Origin: Hyaloraphidium curvatum
Taxonomy: Eukaryota; Monoblepharomycota; Hyaloraphidiomycetes; Hyaloraphidiales; Hyaloraphidiaceae
NCBI GenBank assembly: GCA_025558095.1
Contig: JAIVFI010000016.1
Coordinates: 62,001 to 126,000, forward strand
DNA: 64,000 nt
Direction: 5' to 3'
Part shown: piece after piece, positions 6,076-55,631 of the stretch
Layout of the letters: every line of letters begins with the position of its first letter
Numbering within the stretch: position 1 is the first letter of the stretch
The notes under the pieces: model-generated
The model's database searches: none
What the model was told of the DNA's origin: nothing
What the model saw: only the letters and a program-made list of their open reading frames with translations
Position numbers and translations under genes: made by a program

Positions 6076-7596
6076 TCACCTCCTCATGGCATACTTGTTC
6101 AGGCCCTGCAGGTGCTGCACCGCGTAGCGCTCCCAGTCGATCGCGCGCGCGTCCACGTCCAGCGCGTGCCCCGTGCGGGCGGCCAGCTCGGCCAGGTTAT
6201 CCGTGGCAAACACCGCGGCGCACGTCGTGTAGAACCCAAAGAGCCCCGCGAGCTTGGCCGCCCGCGCATGGCGGTCCCGCGCCTTGCGCGCACCGGGGGT
6301 GCGCACCACCGCCCCCGCGACCGCGTGCGCGGCGCCGGCGACCGAGGCCAGCGCGGCGAACTGTCCGCGCGGGAGCCACTTGAGGGATCCCCGCGGAGTG
6401 CCCGACTTGAGCAGCTTGTCGAGCTCCCCGCCGTCGGCGCGCATCCGCGCCTCCCACAGAGACCACAGCCGCCCAACCGTGATCGGGTTCTCCGCCGACG
6501 TGCCCACGTGCACCGTGAACGCCGAGGTGTCCCCCGCAACCGACCGCCGCACGGCGTCGCAGCACGCGAGCACCATGGCGTTGGCCACCACGTCGCCGGG
6601 CACCACGTCGAGCACGGCCCCCTTGCGGCCGGGCAGCGCGGTCACCCCGCGGGCGTACCCGAGCACAACGGCATCCGCGGCCTTGACCCCCTCGATCCAC
6701 CCTGGCACCGGCCCGGCGTGGCAGCTCTCGACGATGGCCGGGCGCACGACCGTGAGCGCGCATTGGCCGGCGAGCTGCCCCCTGATGAGCGCTTTCCCGA
6801 TCCATTTGGTGAACGTGTATCTGGGAGGCGGTGTGCATGTCAGCTCCGGACCGGATGTGCGCGGTCGTGTCACCCACACGTCGTTGAACCCGTTCTCCCT
6901 CGCCGCCTTGGTCCCCTCCGCCGCCTTCTCCATCTTCCCCGCCCCGGCCGCCCTCTCCAGCAGGCCCCTCGCGAGCCCCTCCGCATCGTATCCCCCGTCA
7001 GCTTGCGCCCTGATGGGCCCCTTGGTCGGCGGCAGCAGCTCCTCCTTGATCTTGCCTTCAGCCCCGCGGATGCCGCACACATACGCCGTGCTCACGTGCA
7101 CCACGGGGATCCCGCGGACGAGGGCGATGCCGGCGAGGGAGCGCAGGGGGAGCACGTTGGCCTGCACGGCTGCGTCCAGGGGGGCGCGGAAGTCGACGTT
7201 GGCGGCGCAGTTGACGATCTGCATGCGGCACGTGACGGCGCGGGTGAGCGGCCGGCCGGGGTGCTGCGGCCCCCGGAACGGAGGACGTACGAGGTCGACG
7301 CAGCCCGCGAGCCTGTCCATCTCGCCGGCATCCATCCCCAGCCCCTCCCTCTCCAGATCCGCCCTAACAGCCTCCACCTTCCCCTCCACCCCATCCAACC
7401 CCTCAAACACGGCGGCGGAGAGCACCTCCCTCTCCACCCTCTCCCGCGGATCGTTCCCGCGCACCAGCAGCGTCACGCGGGCGACGCCGGGGCAGGAACG
7501 GAGGAGGACGGAGAGGAAGAGCTTGCCGACGAAGCCGGTGGCGCCGGTCAGGAGCACGTGGCGGCCGTCGAGGGCCGAGAGCGCGGGGGGGTGCAT
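6076..7596 (-). CDS. Fatty acyl-CoA reductase-like (NAD_binding_4/male-sterility family)
   Basis: The N-terminus has the Rossmann motif LLTGATGFVGKLFLSVLL, followed by VSTAYV and the active-site YxxxK in YTFTKWIGKAL, as in alcohol-forming fatty acyl-CoA reductases and related extended SDRs that reduce acyl thioesters with NADPH. The whole span is open, but two stretches break the family pattern and have intron borders: 7219-7290 (GTACGT...CAG, 72 nt) and 6821-6877 (GTGGGT...CAG, 57 nt). Both are multiples of three without stops. Removing them restores LAGCVDLIVNCAANVDF and NDVYTFTK. The C-terminal ~150 residues match the position of the Sterile domain. Substrate chain length cannot be read from sequence. 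It is divergent from the ABCG transporter at 8023. Confidence 0.8.
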   Translation of the reverse strand: MHPPALSALDGRHVLLTGATGFVGKLFLSVLLRSCPGVARVTLLVRGNDPRERVEREVLSAAVFEGLDGVEGKVEAVRADLEREGLGMDAGEMDRLAGCVDLVRPPFRGPQHPGRPLTRAVTCRMQIVNCAANVDFRAPLDAAVQANVLPLRSLAGIALVRGIPVVHVSTAYVCGIRGAEGKIKEELLPPTKGPIRAQADGGYDAEGLARGLLERAAGAGKMEKAAEGTKAARENGFNDVWVTRPRTSGPELTCTPPPRYTFTKWIGKALIRGQLAGQCALTVVRPAIVESCHAGPVPGWIEGVKAADAVVLGYARGVTALPGRKGAVLDVVPGDVVANAMVLACCDAVRRSVAGDTSAFTVHVGTSAENPITVGRLWSLWEARMRADGGELDKLLKSGTPRGSLKWLPRGQFAALASVAGAAHAVAGAVVRTPGARKARDRHARAAKLAGLFGFYTTCAAVFATDNLAELAARTGHALDVDARAIDWERYAVQHLQGLNKYAMRR

Positions 7597-8022
7597 GGCG
7601 GCGGCGGCGGCGGGGTGCTGTTGGCGGGTCGGTTGGCGGCGAGCTGGGCGGCGCGGCTCCTTTTACCTGCGGCCGCGGCGGGTTGACGTCGTGGTTCGGG
7701 GCCGTCTGTCCGCCGTTCCCGCAGCTCAATGACGTAAGCCAGGCTTTGGGCGGCGGTTTGCGTCGGGCGGCCGCCTGCAGCAGCGGTGTCTGCTGACGGG
7801 GTCGATGATCGGGTGACGTCGACGGGCCGGACGAATTCCGAAAGGCAGGAACAGATCGGCAGGGGCGTGCATGCCTCGGCAGTGTGCTGCAGCGCCGTTT
7901 GTGCGTTCCCGCTGGCCGGCGGGCCGGGCGGCTCACAGATGAAGGCTGAACCCGCGCGGCCCTCAAAAACCCGCTGACTCGCTAGAACCCTGCCGCAGCT
8001 GCAACGACAATCAGACCACGAC
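7597..8022. promoter_or_regulatory. Divergent intergenic region between reductase and ABCG transporter
   Basis: The 426 bp between two divergent start codons presumably contain both promoters. I see no TATA box, RNA gene or conserved ORF. Shared control of acyl reduction and export is only a suggestion from layout. Confidence 0.4.
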
Positions 8023-35475: not shown

Positions 35476-38400
35476 CTACGCCCCAAGAATCAGCTCCTCA
35501 TCTACATTCAAACCAAATGCGACCGGCGCGGGGGCCGGAGCGTTGACAGCGGCGGCTTCGGTGCACAGCTGAAGCCAGTGTTGGAGTTGGGCCGCGACGC
35601 CAAGAGCCCAGGCCACCGCGATCCGTTCGCGGAAGCGCCGCACAAAACGAGAGTAAAGGCCATCGAGGTCCACGGGCTGCCCATCGCGGCCGACGATCCC
35701 GGGATACTGGATGCGCCCCATCTCCGAGGAGAAGCGCGAGAAAGTGGCAGAGACAGCGCTGTACGAATCAAAAGCAAGCACGATCAGAGGGTAGAAGTTG
35801 GCGTTGAAGACGAAACGGGAGTAGTCCTTCCTGGCGGCCTCGACCCGCCGTTCGACTGCGTGGCCCGGGACCGAGAAGACCAGGCCCGTGTGCAAATGGG
35901 CCATAGAGGTGAGGGTCTTGATCTCGAGCAACCACCGTTTCCGGGTTTCGCGGTGCGTGATGAGAACGTCGCCAAGGCGGCCAGCATCCGCAGGCGTGGG
36001 CGGGGTGACAGTCTCGTAGCCATGCGCAAGGAGGTTTGGCGGCATGGGGTGCACGCGGAGGAGCGGGATGGAGCGAAGCGCCGCGCGGATGGCCGCGCAA
36101 ATGTCGTCGTGACCAGGACTGAAGAGATCCCGGCCATAGCAGCCCGAGAACGCGTGCTCCCCCGTCAGCGACATGGCCGATCGCTTGCAGCCCCGCCGGC
36201 AGGGCAAGGAAAGACCAGGGTAGTCGGCCTCGTGCAGGAGCGGGAGGCAAAGCCGGAAGCGTACAAGTAAGCGGAAAAAGTTGTTGCGAATGTGGTTGGC
36301 AAGCAGCGCGGGAGAGGCAGTCAGGAAAGCCGACAGGCCGTCCTGCGCCTGGACGAGCCGCTTGCGGCGCTCCAGACCAGCGGAAGTGGTGGGTTGCAAG
36401 GCAATCAGAGCCGCGAGGCGGCGCTGGTCCTCGAGACGCGTAAGGTCGCTCTGCAGGCCGTGCCAAACCGGCTGGGCGAAGAAACTGGCGTCCGCAGGGA
36501 GCGTACGGCGGGCGGGCGCGGCGCCCACCGGTTGCCCAGCACGCGCAGCCTCGGCGTACGCTGCGGCCGTGTCATCCTCGACACGCTCAAAGGCGGGGCG
36601 GAGGGCCTCGATGACGGGAACCAGTTCCCGCACGTGCTCCACGCCCACACCCCGGGCCGAGGTTCGAAGACCAAGCATGGCGTCCAAGGGGCCCGCCGTG
36701 AGGTTGAGTGAAGACAGGTAAGCCGCCGAGGCCACCTTCTCCGATGACAGAAGCCCCATCCCCGAGTAGTGCAGACCCAAGAATACCTGCTCCCGCACAG
36801 TCCGACCCTCCACCGACAGCGGATCCAGATCCTCGGCCCGATCTCCCAGCAAGCGCAAGAAGGTGGTGAAAAGCGCGTTGTCAAGACGTCGAGCAAAGGG
36901 TTGGGTAACCGAGGGGGGGAGAATGCGGAGCCAAAACGAGAAGAGCTGGGTCACACAGAGACGGAGGAGGGAGTACAGGCCCTGGAGGGAGGGGATGTCG
37001 GCCGGCATGGCGTAGCCGAGCGCAGCGCGCTCGATTTCATCGAGAAGAGCGGCAATGGAGTCGATCTTGGCCGCGAGGAACGACTCCACATAGGCAGGGG
37101 TGCCGACCGGGGCACCTACCACCTTGAGGCCGCACGAGCGAGCGAAGTCAGGCGAGCCCGGGGCCGACGCCGTGGCATGCACCTCGGGGTCGGCCTCGTG
37201 AGGCGGGAAGCCAGCGACGCGGATGTTGTGGGCCGCACCGGCCGCGCGCACCCGCTCCAGCACGGCCGGGTTCGTCGAGAGCGAAAGCAGGTAGCTCTTG
37301 TCCGGGCGGTGGGTCATGCCGAGGGAAGCAAGGCCGTCACGCACCTCTCCCAGGACGGCCATGACCGAGTCCAGCGGCCCGACCACGGTGAGGTCGTCGA
37401 GGTACCCAAGGATGAGGCAGTCGGGGTGCCCAGAGCGGATGGGCCGCAGCATGCGGCTCATGGCGCAGGAGAAGATGGCAGACGACAGCGGGTCGCCCTG
37501 GATGTTGCCCTCGTACATGGTGATCCGGAAAAGGAGCTCCGCCGAGCGCCGGTCGCGGAAGTAGGCGTGGGAAGGGCGCGAGTAAACGAGGTTGTAGTAC
37601 GGGATAAGCTGAGGCACCTGGCGGACCACCTCGCGCGCGAAGAGGCGGCGCAGCGTATTGAAGGCGTTCCTAGAGTCGACCTTCATGACGACGTGGTCGG
37701 GGAAGGCCGCCAGCCACGCGTTCACCGCGTGGGCAGTCGCCTCCGCGCCCCCGTCCACCCCGTGACCCAGGTCCTCCTGCTGTTGGAGCTTCCTCAGAAG
37801 AGCCTTGTGCCGCACGGCCAGGTACGAGCCCGCGAGCCGCGTGATGCCCTCCATAATGCCAATCGGCCGGAGCCCCCCCTCCGGCTTGAGCAGAGGGACG
37901 AGGATTTGATCCGTGAGGAGCGGCCGGAGCATGGGGGTGTCGAGTCGGCCAGTGCACACGCCGTGCACCATGGCCGCCAGCGGGCGGAGCTTCCGTCGCG
38001 TCGCGTCGTTCTCGCAGTTGTGCACGATGAAAAGTTTGGCCATGCTGAAACCCGACATGCCGGCCCCCACGCCGTCCTTCTTCCGGCGCAACCGGGCCCA
38101 GATGTCCTCCAGGAAAGCCGCGTCCGTGTAGGCAGGGCAGGGCGCGGGCGCGTTGGGGGGCAGAGACAGCCGACACAGCGGCTCTCCCTCCCGCGGCCCC
38201 GGGTACAGCTCCTCCAGTTCCGCCTGCAGCGTGGGCGTGAAGCCAGCCGGAACGGCCTCCCCCGAGAGCGCCGCGGACGCAGCACCAGGAGCGCCCTTCA
38301 AGGCGGCAAGCACGATGGCCTTGAAGAGCTGGTAGTTGAGCGGCCGCAGCCCGTCCCGCCGCGCGCCCCGGTTGACCTGACGGGCGGCGAAGTAGTTCTG

Positions 38401-39387
38401 CTCGTACATGTAGTCCCCCGACATGACGTAGCCGCCAAACGCAAGGTAGGCGGTGAGAGTGCGGTGCAGGTCGGTTTCCGGTGCCGCCGGGTCCTCGTAG
38501 GCCCGTTGGAAAGACTCGCTGGCCCGGAAGGCGAGCGTGCTCCAGGTGGTGGTCCGGTAGCGGTGCTTCAGCGGCTCCGGCGGCGGCGCCCCCGCGCCCC
38601 CGCCCGGCGGCGGATCAGGCCCGGGACCCCCGGGTGGACCACCGTCGCCTGGGTCGCCCGGATCACCGCCGTTGCCGTGCCCGCCAGCCGCGGCGTTGCC
38701 GCCCGGCGCGCCGTCGCCGCCTGGGGGATCACCGCCGTCCGGGGCGGCACGCGCCGCCGCCGCCGCCGCCGCCAGCGCCGCCCGTTGCGCCTGGACGTCC
38801 TGCGGGGCGTCGGCCGCAACCCGGGCGGCCGCAAGGGCCGCCATCGGCGCGGGCGCGGGTGGCGAAGCACGGGGAGATGCCGACGATGCCGCCGGTGACG
38901 CCGGTCCCTCCGCGCGTCCCGTGGCAGCCGCCCGCTCGGCACGCACGCGGTCGAGGAACTCGACGAGATCGGGTGGAAGCGAAGCTAAAGAGACGCCGAG
39001 TGGCGGGTTAGCTGCGTCCGGGTTGCACGAGGTGTGCTGTCCAGAAACACCGGCACCAGAGGCGTTTGCGGCGTAGGGACGCCGGCAACCCCCGCACCGC
39101 GCGAGCCCCATGGCGCGCAACGCATCGGCAGACAGGCGCTGCATCGCCAACCAGTGCTCCGGGCTCCGTGTGACCCGAAGATGACCGTCCCGTTTGTTTT
39201 TGTTTGGAGTTGGCTGGAAGCGGCAACCATCAACCGGGCACGCATGGAGGCCGGGTTCAGCAGGCGCCTCCGCCATCGGCACATCGCCGTCGATGCAAGA
39301 TTGGTGATGAAGAGATAGAGCTCCGATGTTGGCGAAAGCTGCCGCGCAGCGGTGGCAGCTGTAAGGCAGGAGCGGCGTGCGGCTCAT
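35476..39387 (-). CDS. Retrotransposon ORF2: reverse transcriptase plus restriction-like endonuclease
   Basis: 1,303 residues. Three N-terminal zinc motifs: CHRCAAAFANIG...HH...C (residues ~11-31), CPVDGC...H, and CGGCRRPY...HTSC. A Pro/Gly/Ala-rich linker follows to about residue 290. The reverse transcriptase has VMKVDSRNAFNTLRRLFARE (catalytic Asp near residue 570), EGNIQGDPLSSAIFS, and the active site GYLDDLTV (near 662). The C-terminus has a CRRGC...H...C knuckle (~1062-1083), then the PD-(D/E)xK-like motif RLGDVLI...LLEIKT (~1137-1155). This layout is that of early-branching REL-type LINEs (R2/CRE/R4 group), which do target-primed reverse transcription. The start ATG overlaps the stop of the preceding ORF as ATGA. 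The clade is not assigned. Confidence 0.92.
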   Translation of the reverse strand: MSRTPLLPYSCHRCAAAFANIGALSLHHQSCIDGDVPMAEAPAEPGLHACPVDGCRFQPTPNKNKRDGHLRVTRSPEHWLAMQRLSADALRAMGLARCGGCRRPYAANASGAGVSGQHTSCNPDAANPPLGVSLASLPPDLVEFLDRVRAERAAATGRAEGPASPAASSASPRASPPAPAPMAALAAARVAADAPQDVQAQRAALAAAAAAARAAPDGGDPPGGDGAPGGNAAAGGHGNGGDPGDPGDGGPPGGPGPDPPPGGGAGAPPPEPLKHRYRTTTWSTLAFRASESFQRAYEDPAAPETDLHRTLTAYLAFGGYVMSGDYMYEQNYFAARQVNRGARRDGLRPLNYQLFKAIVLAALKGAPGAASAALSGEAVPAGFTPTLQAELEELYPGPREGEPLCRLSLPPNAPAPCPAYTDAAFLEDIWARLRRKKDGVGAGMSGFSMAKLFIVHNCENDATRRKLRPLAAMVHGVCTGRLDTPMLRPLLTDQILVPLLKPEGGLRPIGIMEGITRLAGSYLAVRHKALLRKLQQQEDLGHGVDGGAEATAHAVNAWLAAFPDHVVMKVDSRNAFNTLRRLFAREVVRQVPQLIPYYNLVYSRPSHAYFRDRRSAELLFRITMYEGNIQGDPLSSAIFSCAMSRMLRPIRSGHPDCLILGYLDDLTVVGPLDSVMAVLGEVRDGLASLGMTHRPDKSYLLSLSTNPAVLERVRAAGAAHNIRVAGFPPHEADPEVHATASAPGSPDFARSCGLKVVGAPVGTPAYVESFLAAKIDSIAALLDEIERAALGYAMPADIPSLQGLYSLLRLCVTQLFSFWLRILPPSVTQPFARRLDNALFTTFLRLLGDRAEDLDPLSVEGRTVREQVFLGLHYSGMGLLSSEKVASAAYLSSLNLTAGPLDAMLGLRTSARGVGVEHVRELVPVIEALRPAFERVEDDTAAAYAEAARAGQPVGAAPARRTLPADASFFAQPVWHGLQSDLTRLEDQRRLAALIALQPTTSAGLERRKRLVQAQDGLSAFLTASPALLANHIRNNFFRLLVRFRLCLPLLHEADYPGLSLPCRRGCKRSAMSLTGEHAFSGCYGRDLFSPGHDDICAAIRAALRSIPLLRVHPMPPNLLAHGYETVTPPTPADAGRLGDVLITHRETRKRWLLEIKTLTSMAHLHTGLVFSVPGHAVERRVEAARKDYSRFVFNANFYPLIVLAFDSYSAVSATFSRFSSEMGRIQYPGIVGRDGQPVDLDGLYSRFVRRFRERIAVAWALGVAAQLQHWLQLCTEAAAVNAPAPAPVAFGLNVDEELILGA

Positions 39388-48683: not shown

Positions 48684-51600
48684 TCAGTTCCCGAGCCACT
48701 TCCAGATGTATTTCGCCGCCTGCACGAGGGTGCTTTTGCCATGCAGCGCGACAGTCACCTGGCCTCCGGCCCCCGCGCTGAGGAACGGCTGCGTCTTTGC
48801 CGGGATCAAGATCCGGGCGGACACGTATGCCGTTCCGGGGAGGGTCCTTGTCCCGGCATCGGAGATTTCGGCGACCGTTGTGGAAACCCTGCGGATAACG
48901 GCATCAGATCGAGGCGATGGCCGTGCGGCCCGACCCGCTCAAGCTCACGTAAGGTCGGCCGAGAGTCCGGTCCATTTCTCCACGGCCTTGGGCACCCCGA
49001 CGCTGAATACGGGCACCGTCCGTACCTGCGCCGAAGCCCCCTTGGCCGAGTCCACGCCCGCGCAGCTGTTGGCCGCGCACGCCTCCGCGAAGCCGGACCA
49101 GCGCGCGTCGGGGTCCCATGCGGCCCCGACGTTGACCGAGGCGAGGTTGACGTCGAGGAGGGCGGCCTCGCCGGTTCCCACCGAGATGCCGGCGCTCGCG
49201 TGGGCGCCGACGTAGACGCCTTGCACGAGGGAAGGCTTCCCGGACCGGTCCGACGCATCGGGCAGGGGGCCGCACTCCCCTGAAGTCGGAGCTCCAGCGG
49301 CTACGGCAGCTCCCGGAGTCGGCAGCTTGTCGGATCCGTCCGATCCAACCGGTGCTTCCGGTCCTGCATGCGTGGCCTGCGCTTGTGGCTTGCCGTACCC
49401 TCTCGGCTGGGCCTCCGTGCGAGTACTCTTCGCGGGAGCCGGATCCTCGGTCATCCTCCTTGGCTGGGCGTCGTCCGCAGATGGAGCTTCAGATCGGGAG
49501 GCAGGCTCTCGGCCCTCGTCCCCAGCACCATCCCCGCCTGTCTCCGAACTAGATCCTCGAGCCGATCCAGGGGGTGATCCCGTCCCGCCCCCGTCCCCGT
49601 CCCCGGAGGCTGCCATCTTCCACTGGCGGCCCATGTTCGTGCCCGCCGCATAGATGGCCCCCAGCCCGCCGTACAGTGCGCCGTTGATCGCGGCCTGGCC
49701 GATGTCGTCACCCAGCAGCGCGGCGCCTGCCGCCCCCCCCAGGGTGCTCTGGACCGTCTTGTACGCCGTGTCCAGAGCGACACCTCCCACGTCGATGGGA
49801 GCCGAGGGCGGCGGAGTGGGCGACGGCACCACCGCCGACGAGATCTGTGAGACTGCGCCGCCCGCGGCGCCGACCACGAGGCCACCGACCATGGCCTTGC
49901 CGACGCCATCCATCAACGGCCGTCCCTCGACGGCGTTGATCGCCATCGTCGATGCTCCCGCGGAGAGCGAAGCGCTGGCGGCCGCGGAGCCGACGTCCAC
50001 GGCGATCTTGGCCACCCCCTGCACGGATCCCGCCAGCGCCGACACGCCGGCACCCACGGCGGCGCCGATCCCGGCCCCGACGAGCCCCGCGGCAACCCCG
50101 ATCGCGCCGACCTTGAGGAACTCGCCCCATTCCATCCCGCCGTCGCTCAGCGCGGTCCTGACGGTCATCCCGATCCCCGCGGACACCACCGCGCCCCCCA
50201 CGACCGCCGCCAACCCCGCGGTGCACACGCACAGCGCGACGCCGGCGAGGCTGACAGCGACCCCGACGGCGATCTGCACCAGCTTGCGCCACCACGGCCT
50301 GCGGGCTTCCTGCAGCCCCTTGTCGGCGGCGGCGAGGGCGGCGTCCGCGGCCCGGATCCGGCCGGCGATCGCCTCGAGCTCCGCCCCGCCGGCAACGAGC
50401 TGCTCCCGGGCGTGCGCGTAGAGCCCGTCGATCTCCCCGGCCGCCGCGGCCGCGACCTCCCCGTACCTGCGGTCCGACTCGGCCAGCGCCACGGCGAGGT
50501 CCCGCCCCATGCCCTCCCGTGCATCCCGCGCGGCCCCGGCGATCCCCCGAGCGCCGGCATCGAACGCCGCCGAGAGCTCCCCGGTCAGCTCGGCGCCTAC
50601 CTCGCGGATGCGCGCCGCGCAGGCCGCCATCTGGTCGACGCGGGCCGAGGCCATGGCTTCCGCCATGCTCTCGTAGTCGGCCTTGCGGGTCCCGGCGATC
50701 TCGATCCCATGCACGGCCTGCGAGACCCATTCGGCCTGCTGCCGGACGAAGGCCACCAGGGTCTCGGCGGCGTCGTCGCCCGCGGCTTCGAGGCGGAACG
50801 TTTTCTCCCAGATGGCGATCCTCTCGGCCACGAACTCGACCGTCGCATCCCGCGTCCGCAGCACCGCGTCGACGACGATCGATTGCCAGAGCCGCTGCGC
50901 CAGCGACTCGTCGGCCGCGGTCGCCGCCGCCGCGCACCGCCTGCGCACGGCGGAGAAGGCCCGGTTGGCCGCACGGTCGAGCCTGCGGAAGCACGCCGCG
51001 GTATTCTCCGCGTCCAGCAGGACGAACGGCGGCGCGGAAAGCTCCCCGCGCAGGCCTCGGTGCGCCGCGGCGACGGCGAGGGTGTGCGCGGCGAACAGTT
51101 CCGCCGGGGTCGGGATGCGCCCCCCCGCCGCAGCCCCGGCGAGGGCGGCGGGCAGGTCCCACGATCCGAGGCGCTCCTTCAGCTCGGCGGCGTAGACTTG
51201 GCCCGCGGCACGGGCGGCGCCGTGGGCGGCATCGACCGCGGCCGCACGCTGCAGGTCGTACGCGCTCGGGAAGCGGTCGCCTTCGGCATCGGCGAGCCGA
51301 GCCAGGCGGCGGACGTATGGCGCGGGCTCGAAGGGCGCAAAGGCGGGGTCGCAGATGGGGGAGCAGAGTGCGGCGGCCAGCTCGTTGGCGAGCTCAGGGG
51401 CCGATCCCGCATGCGGCCAGACGGCGAAAGAGGCATGGGAGAACAAGGTCTGCCGGTACGGAGTGCGAAACGGCGCGAGTCAGCTGCTCGTGCTTGCTGG
51501 GAGCGCAGCTTTGTAAACGGTGCCGCACCTTCACGCTCTCCTGGTTCCTCCGCAGCACCGTGTCGCCCGCCTGCGCAGCGAGGGCGTCCGCCTGTGCCCG

Positions 51601-52164
51601 ATCGGCCACGCCGGCAAAGTGGACGACGTGCGCCGCGGGCTTGAAGGCCGAGCCGAAGGCGGCAACAAGGGATCCGCTCGCGGCGGCGGGGGCGAGCACC
51701 TCCGAGAGCCACGCCGGGACGGCCGACGGCGCGTTCTCCGCGGCGACGACCACGTGGGCGCCGGCGAGGCAGCCGCGCGGCAGGGCGCCGGGGAACACCG
51801 AGAACACCAGCCAGCGCGGCCGCGGGGCCGGCAGGAGGATGCAGAACGCGTGGGGCTGCGAGGCCGCGCGCAGGTCGGCCGGGGCCGCGAGGCGTGAACC
51901 GTCGCCCAGCAGCGCCGTGGCGAGGCGGCCGGCGACGTCCCACACCTGATGGCACGCGGTGCCTGTGATGGCAATGGGGACCACGGGAACGTTCAGCAGC
52001 GCGATGGCCGGCAGCCCCTCGGCCGTGCGGTCACTCAAAAGTACCGGCACCACGCGGGCACGCCGCTGCCCCGCGACGGCGAACTGCGGCAGCGGCTCCA
52101 GCCCGGCGGGGACCGGCGCCGCGGCGTGGGAGGCATCGGCGGCGATCGGCTCGACGGCGGCCAT
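48684..52164 (-). CDS. Large protein with glycine-zipper membrane-like region, 3 exons
   Basis: ATG 52164 starts an exon reading to RRNQESVK. A ~90-nt intron (GTGCGG...GGCAG) rejoins TLFSHASFAVWPHAG. Intron 48889-48948 then joins SADLT to VSTTVAEISDAGTRTLPG and the end AAKYIWKWLGN at 48684. The protein of about 1,120 residues is alanine-rich. Residues ~330-560 are long helices. After RRPWWRKL come several Gly/Ala-rich hydrophobic segments, e.g. VGVAVSLAGVALCVCTAGLA and VGAIGVAAGLVGAGIGAAVG, with GxxxG zippers. Then follow a charged disordered stretch and an ordered C-terminus. This looks like a membrane-inserting or self-assembling protein. No family is recognised. It is divergent from the GTPase-Hint gene with a 248-bp promoter between. 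Confidence 0.65.
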
Positions 52165-52412: not shown

Positions 52413-55400
52413 ATGCGTGAGTGTCCGCCGCCGCACCGCGGCCGCCCCGCGCTGACGCCCTCCGCAGCCTTCGCTCTGTTCCCGCGGCCCGACATTCTCG
52501 TTGTCGCCGTCGTCCAGCGGGGCGGCGACACGTACACAATCGCAGAGTGGCGCCGGCCCGGCGCTCCGGCGTTCGCCGACATCGACGCCGCCGTCGCGAC
52601 CTCGTGGCGCCCCGCTGCGAGCGGCATCTCGCGCATGGTCTTTGGCGGCCACAGCTTCGACTCGCTCCACGCCGCGCTGCCGCCCGCCGAAGATGGCCAG
52701 CCCCAAGTGCACGTCATGGGCATCCGTCGTGAAGGCATCGAGGTCACCATGGCGTACACGGCGACGTTCTGGCGGCTCCACACCGTGCCGCTGCCCGCCG
52801 TGCCCGCGGCCATCCTGCTGATGGCCGAGGAGACCGCCTCGGCTTCGCCCTCGTCTCTGGGGGCCAACTTCTACCAAGTCATGATCGGCAACTTCGTTGG
52901 GGCCTTCAGGGTCGGCAGCGAGGTCCTGGATCTCGCCCGCGCCCTGAACCCGCCGCGGCGGGACGCCCTGCGCGTGCACGCCCGCGCCATCGGCATCGTC
53001 GACGAGGGCCACCCCAGGCCCGACGACCTGCGGCCGATCCTGGTGCCGAACCAAGCCGGCCTCGAGGCCCTGCGCGGCATGGCCGAGGAGAACGCCTCGG
53101 CCGACCGGCCCGTGCACCCGCAGGCCATCATCGGCAGCGTGCGCAGGGGCAAGACCACGCTCAACAACATCATGCTCCGCATTGCTAACGAGGTCAGCAC
53201 CGACAGGCTCGGCACCACCGAGTACGGCTACTACGACTCGGCGTCGGTGCCCTTTTTCTTCCTCGCCTCCAACGCCGGGAGGTCCGTCACCAGGGGCGTC
53301 CAGGCCTACGCGATCGAGACCTTGAACAGGACCGTGCTCCTCCTGGACTTCGAGGGGTTCGACAGCGAGGCTCCTCACGCCGAGATCGGGGAGCCCGGCC
53401 CGTCGTCCGCCGCGGGCCCCTCCAACGCGCCCGCGCCGACCTGGAACCACGCCAACCGCCGCGAGTTCGACACCCGCCTCTACGCCCTCGCCATCGCCAT
53501 CGCACCCACCGTCGTCTTCAACGCCTCGGGGATCGTGTCGGCCTCGCTCACGCTGGACAGCATCGCGGCTCTGCACGGGTCGGCCCTAAACCGGCGCATC
53601 GTGCCGCCCGGGGGCCGCGGCTCGTCGTTCCTGATGATGGTGATGCAGAACCACCCCGACGTCGGGCACGACTCGAGGCAGGACTTTGGCGCCTGGCTGG
53701 ACCGCAACGGCCGCAGGGCCGTCTTCGCCACCACCTTTGGCGACTACGCCGTGGTCAACGTGCCCGGGCCCGAGATCGACCCCGCCCTCGAGGTGTCCCG
53801 CATGCCGGCGGAGCGGCTGCGCAGGAACGGTTACCTGGGCCAGATCATGCGGGCCTGGGAAACCGCAAGGGAGAACGGGCAGCCCGTGCCGGGCGACCTG
53901 GTCAGGCTGATCGAGGTGGGGTCCCGCGTACGTGTTTGTGGGGTACCGCGGCTCATCCAATGTCGCACGCAGGACTCGACGGCGGCCATCAACGCCACCG
54001 CAAACCTCAACTCGTACGGGCAGGACGACTACCAGACCACGCAGCAGATCCGGAGCCACGCCGCGGCGACGGTCGCGGCGCACCGCGCCGCCCTGGAGGC
54101 CAGGCGCCAGGCCGTCGATGCCACGGCCGACGTCTCGCAGCTCGAGACGGCGCAGGAGCTCAGCGCCTTCCTGCACACGGAGCGGCACCGCGCGATCGGG
54201 AACTTCCGCGCCGTCCCCAACCTCTCGGATCAGCACAGGGCCATGCACGGCAACGCCATCGAGCAGGAAGAGCGCCTCATGTGCGAGCAGGTCGACGCCG
54301 CGGCGGACCTCCTCCTGGCCACCTACGCAGCCGCCTCGCGCCGCCACCTGGCCGCCCTCGTCGACGGGATCCGCAACGCCGTGCCGCCCGCAGCCGACTA
54401 CGTGCCCAGCGCCGCGAACCCGACCGCGGATCCCGCCCGGTTCCGCCAGTGGATCGACGAGCGGCTGCGGAGCTTCGACGGCACGGCAAGGGGGCCCAAC
54501 GACGCCGTCACCGCGGCCAGGGAGCGGCTCGCCAGCGACCTCGGGTCGTTCCTGCGGCTGTACCAGCAGCAGGCGGAGGATTTCCGCCGGGCCGAGCGGC
54601 GCGCGCGGGAGCAGGAGGAGCGGACGCGCCAGGAGCAGGAGCGCATGAGGGCCGAGCGCGAGCGCATGGAGGGGGACCTCAGGGCGCAGGCAGAGCTGCG
54701 GCAGCGGCAGATGGAAGAGCAGGCCCGGCAGGCCGCGGAGGAGCTCGGCCGGGAGAGGGAGGCGGCGGCAGCTCAGCTCCGCGAGGTCAATGCCAGGCAC
54801 ATGCAGGACCTTCGGGATACTCAGGCCGAGATGAGGTCCCAGGCGCAGCAGCAGCTCGAGGAAACCGTGGCCCCGCTCAACCGACGCATCCAGGAGCTTT
54901 CCGCCGACGTCGCACGGGAGACTGCGCGGGCCAACGACCTGCAGCGCCAGGCTGACGAGCTCAGGAACAGGGGCGGATGCTTCGCCTCGTCGTGCACGGC
55001 CGAGCTCGAGGATGGCCGCCGCATCGGCGTGGCCGAACTGCGGGTCGGGGACCACGTGCGCGTTGCGCGCGGGGGATTCGAGCCCGTCGTTGGCTTCTAC
55101 GACGCCGATACCGACGCGGAGCCGTGCTTCCTCGAGGTTGCTTTCGGGCTGCAGGACGGCCAGTCGGGCATGATCACGCTCACTCACAACCACATGGTCA
55201 TCGCCAGCAACGGCAGCGGCCCGGCCTTGCCCATGCAGGCGCACAAGCTGATCCCCGGCACCAGCTTCCTCATGCTCGCGGGGAGCATGGACCCTGTTCC
55301 CGTGGTCTCGGTGCGCGCCTCAGATGTCCGCGGAGCCTACTCCCCCGCCACCCCCGGCGGCACCATTGCCGTCTCGGACCGCGGCCCGGCGGTCGTGGCC

Positions 55401-55631
55401 TCCTGCTACGCTAAGCCCTCGACGTTCAGCAAGCTGGCCTGGGACGACGCCGCGGTGGATGCGGCACTGCACGGGGCGTCGTGGTTGCTGCGCATGTGGT
55501 GGGCCGCATCCGGGTTGGCGGGCTGGCCGTTGGCGGGAGGTGCGGCGGGAACTGGCAAGGCTGGGCCGGGAGTTCGGGCCCTCAAGGCCGCAGCAGCGGC
55601 AGCGTTCTCCTGGATTGGGCTGCTGGACTGA
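52413..55631 (+). CDS. GBP-like GTPase, coiled coil and Hedgehog-type Hint domain fusion
   Basis: About 1,070 residues from ATG 52413. A ~230-residue N-terminal domain precedes the P-loop IIGSVRRGKTTLNNIML (near 240), switch-like SVTRGVQAY, and G3 motif LLLDFEGFD (near 312), the order seen in guanylate-binding/atlastin GTPases. Helices and a long Arg/Glu/Gln coiled coil (~720-850) follow. From GGCFASSCTAELEDG (Cys near 855) the sequence is a Hint domain: ELRVGDHVRV, the TxxH block in ITLTHNHMVI, and GAYSPATPGGTI...ASCYA, which is diagnostic of Hedgehog rather than intein Hints. A hydrophobic tail (LLRMWWAASGLAGWPLAGG, AAAAFSWIGLLD) sits where Hedgehog has its sterol-recognition region. A 48-nt in-frame intron is likely at about 53929-53980 (GTACGT...CGCAG). 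I recall a GTPase-Hint protein, GIN1, from a Glomus fungus with similar order. Confidence 0.88.
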   Translation: MRECPPPHRGRPALTPSAAFALFPRPDILVVAVVQRGGDTYTIAEWRRPGAPAFADIDAAVATSWRPAASGISRMVFGGHSFDSLHAALPPAEDGQPQVHVMGIRREGIEVTMAYTATFWRLHTVPLPAVPAAILLMAEETASASPSSLGANFYQVMIGNFVGAFRVGSEVLDLARALNPPRRDALRVHARAIGIVDEGHPRPDDLRPILVPNQAGLEALRGMAEENASADRPVHPQAIIGSVRRGKTTLNNIMLRIANEVSTDRLGTTEYGYYDSASVPFFFLASNAGRSVTRGVQAYAIETLNRTVLLLDFEGFDSEAPHAEIGEPGPSSAAGPSNAPAPTWNHANRREFDTRLYALAIAIAPTVVFNASGIVSASLTLDSIAALHGSALNRRIVPPGGRGSSFLMMVMQNHPDVGHDSRQDFGAWLDRNGRRAVFATTFGDYAVVNVPGPEIDPALEVSRMPAERLRRNGYLGQIMRAWETARENGQPVPGDLVRLIEVGSRVRVCGVPRLIQCRTQDSTAAINATANLNSYGQDDYQTTQQIRSHAAATVAAHRAALEARRQAVDATADVSQLETAQELSAFLHTERHRAIGNFRAVPNLSDQHRAMHGNAIEQEERLMCEQVDAAADLLLATYAAASRRHLAALVDGIRNAVPPAADYVPSAANPTADPARFRQWIDERLRSFDGTARGPNDAVTAARERLASDLGSFLRLYQQQAEDFRRAERRAREQEERTRQEQERMRAERERMEGDLRAQAELRQRQMEEQARQAAEELGREREAAAAQLREVNARHMQDLRDTQAEMRSQAQQQLEETVAPLNRRIQELSADVARETARANDLQRQADELRNRGGCFASSCTAELEDGRRIGVAELRVGDHVRVARGGFEPVVGFYDADTDAEPCFLEVAFGLQDGQSGMITLTHNHMVIASNGSGPALPMQAHKLIPGTSFLMLAGSMDPVPVVSVRASDVRGAYSPATPGGTIAVSDRGPAVVASCYAKPSTFSKLAWDDAAVDAALHGASWLLRMWWAASGLAGWPLAGGAAGTGKAGPGVRALKAAAAAAFSWIGLLD

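Follow-up and report, generated by a model that had tools for sequence, protein, structure and literature searches.

A fungal gene joining a GBP/atlastin-like large GTPase to a coiled coil and a Hedgehog-type Hint domain: a candidate for self-processing and possible sterol attachment

Within the 64-kb window, i.e. the whole stretch of DNA that was analysed, one gene encodes a protein which combines a large GTPase, a long coiled coil and a C-terminal Hint domain. Its features are given below together with the evidence by which each was placed.

52413..55631 (+): GTPase-coiled coil-Hint gene, ATG to TGA; ORF listing and coding statistics
52413..52997 (+): N-terminal region of ~195 aa, no known family; Pfam and hydropathy
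53031..53927 (+): P-loop large-GTPase domain, residues 207-505; best Pfam family GBP (PF02263), scoring below cut-off
53133..53156 (+): G1 P-loop GSVRRGKT, residues 241-248; motif comparison with GBPs
53289..53300 (+): G2 Thr in TRGV, residues 293-296; compare TKGIW of Sey1 and GBP
53346..53357 (+): G3 DFEG, residues 312-315; compare DTEG of GBPs and DVEG of Sey1
53646..53660 (+): probable G4 region QNHPD, residues 412-416; placed by eye
53928..53972 (+): probable in-frame phase-0 intron of 45 nt; borders GTACGT...CGCAG, CTCAT as branch-like site
54552..54977 (+): coiled coil, residues 714-855 (699-840 after splicing); heptad scoring
54978..55412 (+): Hint domain, Cys856-Ala1000; Pfam PF01079, PDB matches and Drosophila alignment
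55413..55628 (+): tail of 72 aa, residues 1001-1072, in the position of the sterol recognition region; hydropathy and a low-confidence model

The reading frame comprises 1072 stop-free codons, compared with a maximum of 561 codons when the surrounding 8 kb were shuffled 200 times, and it reaches the top coding score within the window. The GC content of 0.70, 0.52 and 0.91 at first, second and third codon positions indicates a strong codon bias, and together with the intact frame and the Pfam match of the Hint domain this bears out the original prediction that a single gene carries all three parts. That prediction overlooked the probable 45-nt intron: among codons 506-520, A or T occupies the third position in 7 of 15 versus 9% gene-wide (p 1.7e-4), which makes this stretch the sole intron candidate with p < 0.001. 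Its removal would probably shorten the protein by 15 residues from 1072 to 1057 aa, and the domain architecture is unaltered by splicing, with the frame from P-loop to Hint open either way. In the final ~40 codons (from about residue 1031) the coding signal is weaker and third positions are AT-richer, so that the exact C-terminus is uncertain; alternative terminal introns were listed for the tail and none of them was convincing. The gene is present as a single copy in the 31.9-Mb genome, on a contig of 741 kb. A stretch of 54 nt on contig 19 (282974-283027) is 89% identical to the DNA encoding the coiled coil, probably as a convergent Glu/Arg-rich coil sequence.

A divergently oriented neighbour (48945-52164, minus strand) starts ~250 nt from the start of the GTPase-Hint gene. 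It has two exons separated by a probable intron (51450-51528) and encodes a helical protein of 1046 aa with a Gly/Ala-rich hydrophobic block, for which neither a Pfam family nor a clear paralogue in the genome was found. The idea of this neighbour being a dead GTPase partner was rejected, as the similarity was no better than that of shuffles. Other genes in the window include a reverse-transcriptase ORF at 35653-38859 (minus strand; RVT_1, E 5.2e-10), probably a retroelement, and a fatty acyl-CoA reductase-like gene at 6085-7620 (minus strand; NAD_binding_4, E 6.2e-44, with a weak Sterile match). Regarding the host, chitin synthase N-terminal domains at three loci of the genome and sterol C24-methyltransferase domains at two loci support a fungus that produces C24-alkylated sterols. 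The GC content of the window (68%) does not fit Glomeromycotina, which have low-GC genomes, and a search of the genome for IFT57, addressing the question of flagellation, gave a sub-threshold match only.

The N-terminal ~195 aa of the protein matched no Pfam family at E values of up to 10, and a hydropathy scan revealed no clear signal peptide or transmembrane span; its site of action would therefore be cytosolic, in contrast to that of Hedgehog. For the GTPase domain, the GBP family obtained E 0.17 with the whole protein and E 0.0089 with the domain alone, the latter corresponding to 15.7 bits versus a cut-off of 21.1. All three motifs of the GBP pattern are present, namely G1 GxxRxGK(S/T), the G2 Thr and G3 DxEG, and the Arg of GSVRRGKT occupies the same position as the P-loop Arg found in most GBPs, e.g. 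in GLYRTGKS (motif table, PMC2387175). The G4 motif diagnostic of GBPs, T(L/V)RD (PMC12486975), is missing in this domain; the corresponding strand reads MMVMQNHPD, in which NHPD appears to resemble NKxD more than TLRD. Judged by G1-G3, this is a GBP/atlastin-like large GTPase, but not a GBP. Thus, the predicted GBP/atlastin-like nature stands with regard to the motifs and the top Pfam family, with the sub-cut-off score and the missing T(L/V)RD speaking against a closer assignment. The RHD3 (Sey1) GTPase profile did not match the protein, and the AIG1 profile (PF04548) matched neither the protein nor anything else in the genome. Sey1/RHD3 is encoded by a separate gene with short introns on contig 18 (E 6.9e-100), the sole RHD3 match of the genome, and a profile comparison of the G domain with Sey1 aligned the P-loop only.

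Heptad scoring recovered the long coiled coil expected between GTPase and Hint (residues 714-855); it extends over ~140 residues and stops exactly at the Hint Cys, the predicted cleavage site. The Hedgehog-type Hint domain itself, proposed on the basis of the starting Cys, TxxH and ASCYA with a profile search named as a check, is confirmed by a significant match of residues 852-1001 to PF01079 (E 2.9e-18; 66.7 bits versus a curated cut-off of 29.7) and by the alignment of the catalytic residues. The top PDB sequence matches are Drosophila Hedgehog chains, and the identity to the Drosophila Hedgehog Hint crystal sequence is 31% over 145 residues. The nucleophile Cys856, preceded by Gly855, corresponds to C258 of Hedgehog (Hint position C1), Asp897 to D303 (D46), Thr924 and His927 within THNH (residues 924-927) to T326 and H329 of the TxxH motif (T69 and H72), and Cys998 within ASCYA (residues 996-1000) to C400 (C143). 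Inteins have C258 and TxxH in common with Hedgehog, but D303 and C400 are Hedgehog-specific; a D303A mutant of Hedgehog retains DTT cleavage and does not complete cholesterol transfer (PMC9163320). Because the equivalents of C258, D303, TxxH and C400 are kept, all residues for the full Hedgehog reaction are present. A genome-wide search found no second Hint besides the one in this gene.

The 72 aa following ASCYA agree in position and size with the sterol recognition region (SRR) of Hedgehog, which comprises ~70 residues (PMC4695875), and contain hydrophobic or amphipathic stretches according to the hydropathy scan. The original prediction of a hydrophobic tail at this position is therefore correct in place and hydrophobicity, and is weakened by the coding signal at its end and by the absence of HWY from residues 1001-1072, a motif in the second SRR helix that human SHH requires to transfer cholesterol (PMC7242414). 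The structure prediction that had been suggested for the Hint-tail part yielded two tail helices at low confidence (~1012-1036 and ~1052-1070; pLDDT 50-64 there, in a single-sequence AlphaFold model only), so the tail could be a helix-loop-helix resembling the SRR. With a pLDDT of 41 for Hint-tail and 33 for the G domain, these models are too poor to test folds, and the Foldseek hits of both were dismissed as meaningless.

Based on these data, we propose, with a probability of about 0.45, that the gene encodes a Hog-type autoprocessing protein with a large GTPase as cargo, on which a sterol ester is left at the end of the coil. Post-translationally, the Hint fold would catalyse an N-to-S acyl shift at Gly855-Cys856, and the thioester would then be resolved by a 3-beta-hydroxysterol held at the membrane by the hydrophobic tail. 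The acceptor would probably be a fungal sterol alkylated at C24, given the sterol C24-methyltransferases encoded in the genome. Processing would yield a GTPase-coiled coil with a C-terminal sterol ester at the coil tip, which would keep the GTPase on the cytosolic face of a membrane; membrane anchoring and any role in membrane remodelling are what we infer from this arrangement. By analogy, the ester site may be the counterpart of the position at which GBP1, GBP2 and GBP5 bear a CaaX isoprenyl group (PMC12486975). The individual steps differ in strength: with the given residues, self-processing of the protein is most likely and cleavage after Gly855 likely, and the GTPase-coiled coil may become esterified with a sterol. 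Given the Hedgehog-specific residues and the hydrophobic tail, no other single acceptor is as likely as a sterol; simple hydrolysis or a different acceptor retains some of the probability because HWY is missing and the end of the tail is uncertain.

A realistic possibility is that the Hint domain cuts after Gly855 and that water or another small nucleophile resolves the thioester, which would set free a GTPase-coiled coil bearing no lipid, in the manner of hydrolytic Hint proteins. This scenario is supported by the complete set of catalytic Cys, Thr and His and by the tail without HWY; in Hedgehog mutants lacking the SRR, proteolysis takes place with no transfer of a sterol (PMC7242414). However, the equivalents of D303 and C400 and a hydrophobic tail of SRR length have been retained, and D303 is reported to restrain premature hydrolysis in Hedgehog. 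Transfer to another acceptor (a different lipid alcohol, an amine or a protein), resulting in a novel adduct, appears improbable. It is in line with an SRR-equivalent region unlike that of Hedgehog, a situation also met in nematode Hogs, where the name adduct recognition region (ARR) was introduced (PMC2362128); nevertheless, direct support for another acceptor is absent, and the last part of the tail with its AT-richer third positions is itself uncertain. Slightly less probable still is a catalytically silent Hint serving as a folding or interaction module only: despite the low overall identity of 31%, the Gly-Cys junction and every catalytic residue are kept, which suggests ongoing selection for catalysis. 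Finally, an artefact of the gene model, with two genes or a transcript ending ahead of the Hint, could be imagined from the probable intron between GTPase and coil, but is very improbable with coil and Hint in one continuous frame of equally strong codon bias and with no stop between P-loop and Hint in the spliced or unspliced form.

Returning to the sterol-modified GTPase as the preferred reading, its broadest form is a dynamin-superfamily-like GTPase that sterylates itself via a cytosolic Hog and thereby carries a self-encoded replacement of the CaaX prenyl group, which would represent a protein-sterol linkage outside animal Hedgehog; taken as a whole, we regard this wider claim as doubtful. 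A review from 2015 stated that Hedgehog proteins seem to be the sole holders of the sterol-attachment chemistry (PMC4695875). In the literature examined, no non-animal Hog has been demonstrated to attach a sterol. The present gene makes the question of sterol attachment outside animals directly testable because the catalytic residues are complete, the host has a sterol pathway and the GTPase cargo can be assayed.

In comparison with known systems, searches of viral contigs, bacterial and archaeal genomes and phage proteins returned no homologues, a scope that says little on fungi, and no GBP-like-Hint fusion was found in the open-licence literature, which is not proof of its being undescribed. 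GIN1 had been named as a related architecture, and the literature agrees: GmGIN1 of Glomus mosseae has an AIG1-like GTPase and a bona fide Hog domain but no signal peptide (PMC2362128), and AIG1-Hint proteins (MEROPS C46) are greatly expanded in Glomeromycotina and, in a set of 45 early-diverging and 10 Dikarya proteomes, were absent from the fungi outside this group (PMC8778642). GIN1 and the present protein both place a fungal GTPase ahead of a Hedgehog-type Hint, and neither has a clear signal peptide. In contrast to the AIG1/IAN type of the GIN1 family, the GTPase is GBP/atlastin-like by G1-G3 in our case, where a long coiled coil adjoins the cleavage site and GC content is 68%. Fusions of AIG1/GIMAP with Hint are also described for coral, snail and amphioxus (PMC3723955, PMC7053062, PMC12373286), and CARD-AIG1-Hint for a few fungi (PMC12373286); the animal proteins share the order of GTPase and C-terminal Hint and differ in their AIG1 GTPases, animal hosts and, sometimes, CARD or other extra domains. 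With the Hog of animal Hedgehog, the protein shares C258, D303, T326, H329, C400, the Gly-Cys junction and a hydrophobic C-terminal tail, whereas the secreted Hedge signalling domain, a clear signal peptide and HWY are lacking. Similarly, the P-loop Arg, Thr-x-Gly, DxEG and a helical region with coiled coil past the G domain are reminiscent of GBP, atlastin and Sey1, whereas the Pfam GBP score is below cut-off and G4 is NHPD-like rather than RD. Since AIG1-GTPase-Hint fusions are already known from mycorrhizal fungi and some animals, the GBP/atlastin-like-Hint combination adds a new version to an established GTPase-Hint architecture. Hint domains have been combined with at least two types of GTPase, AIG1 and the GBP/atlastin-like one described here, which suggests that self-processing suits GTPases in particular.
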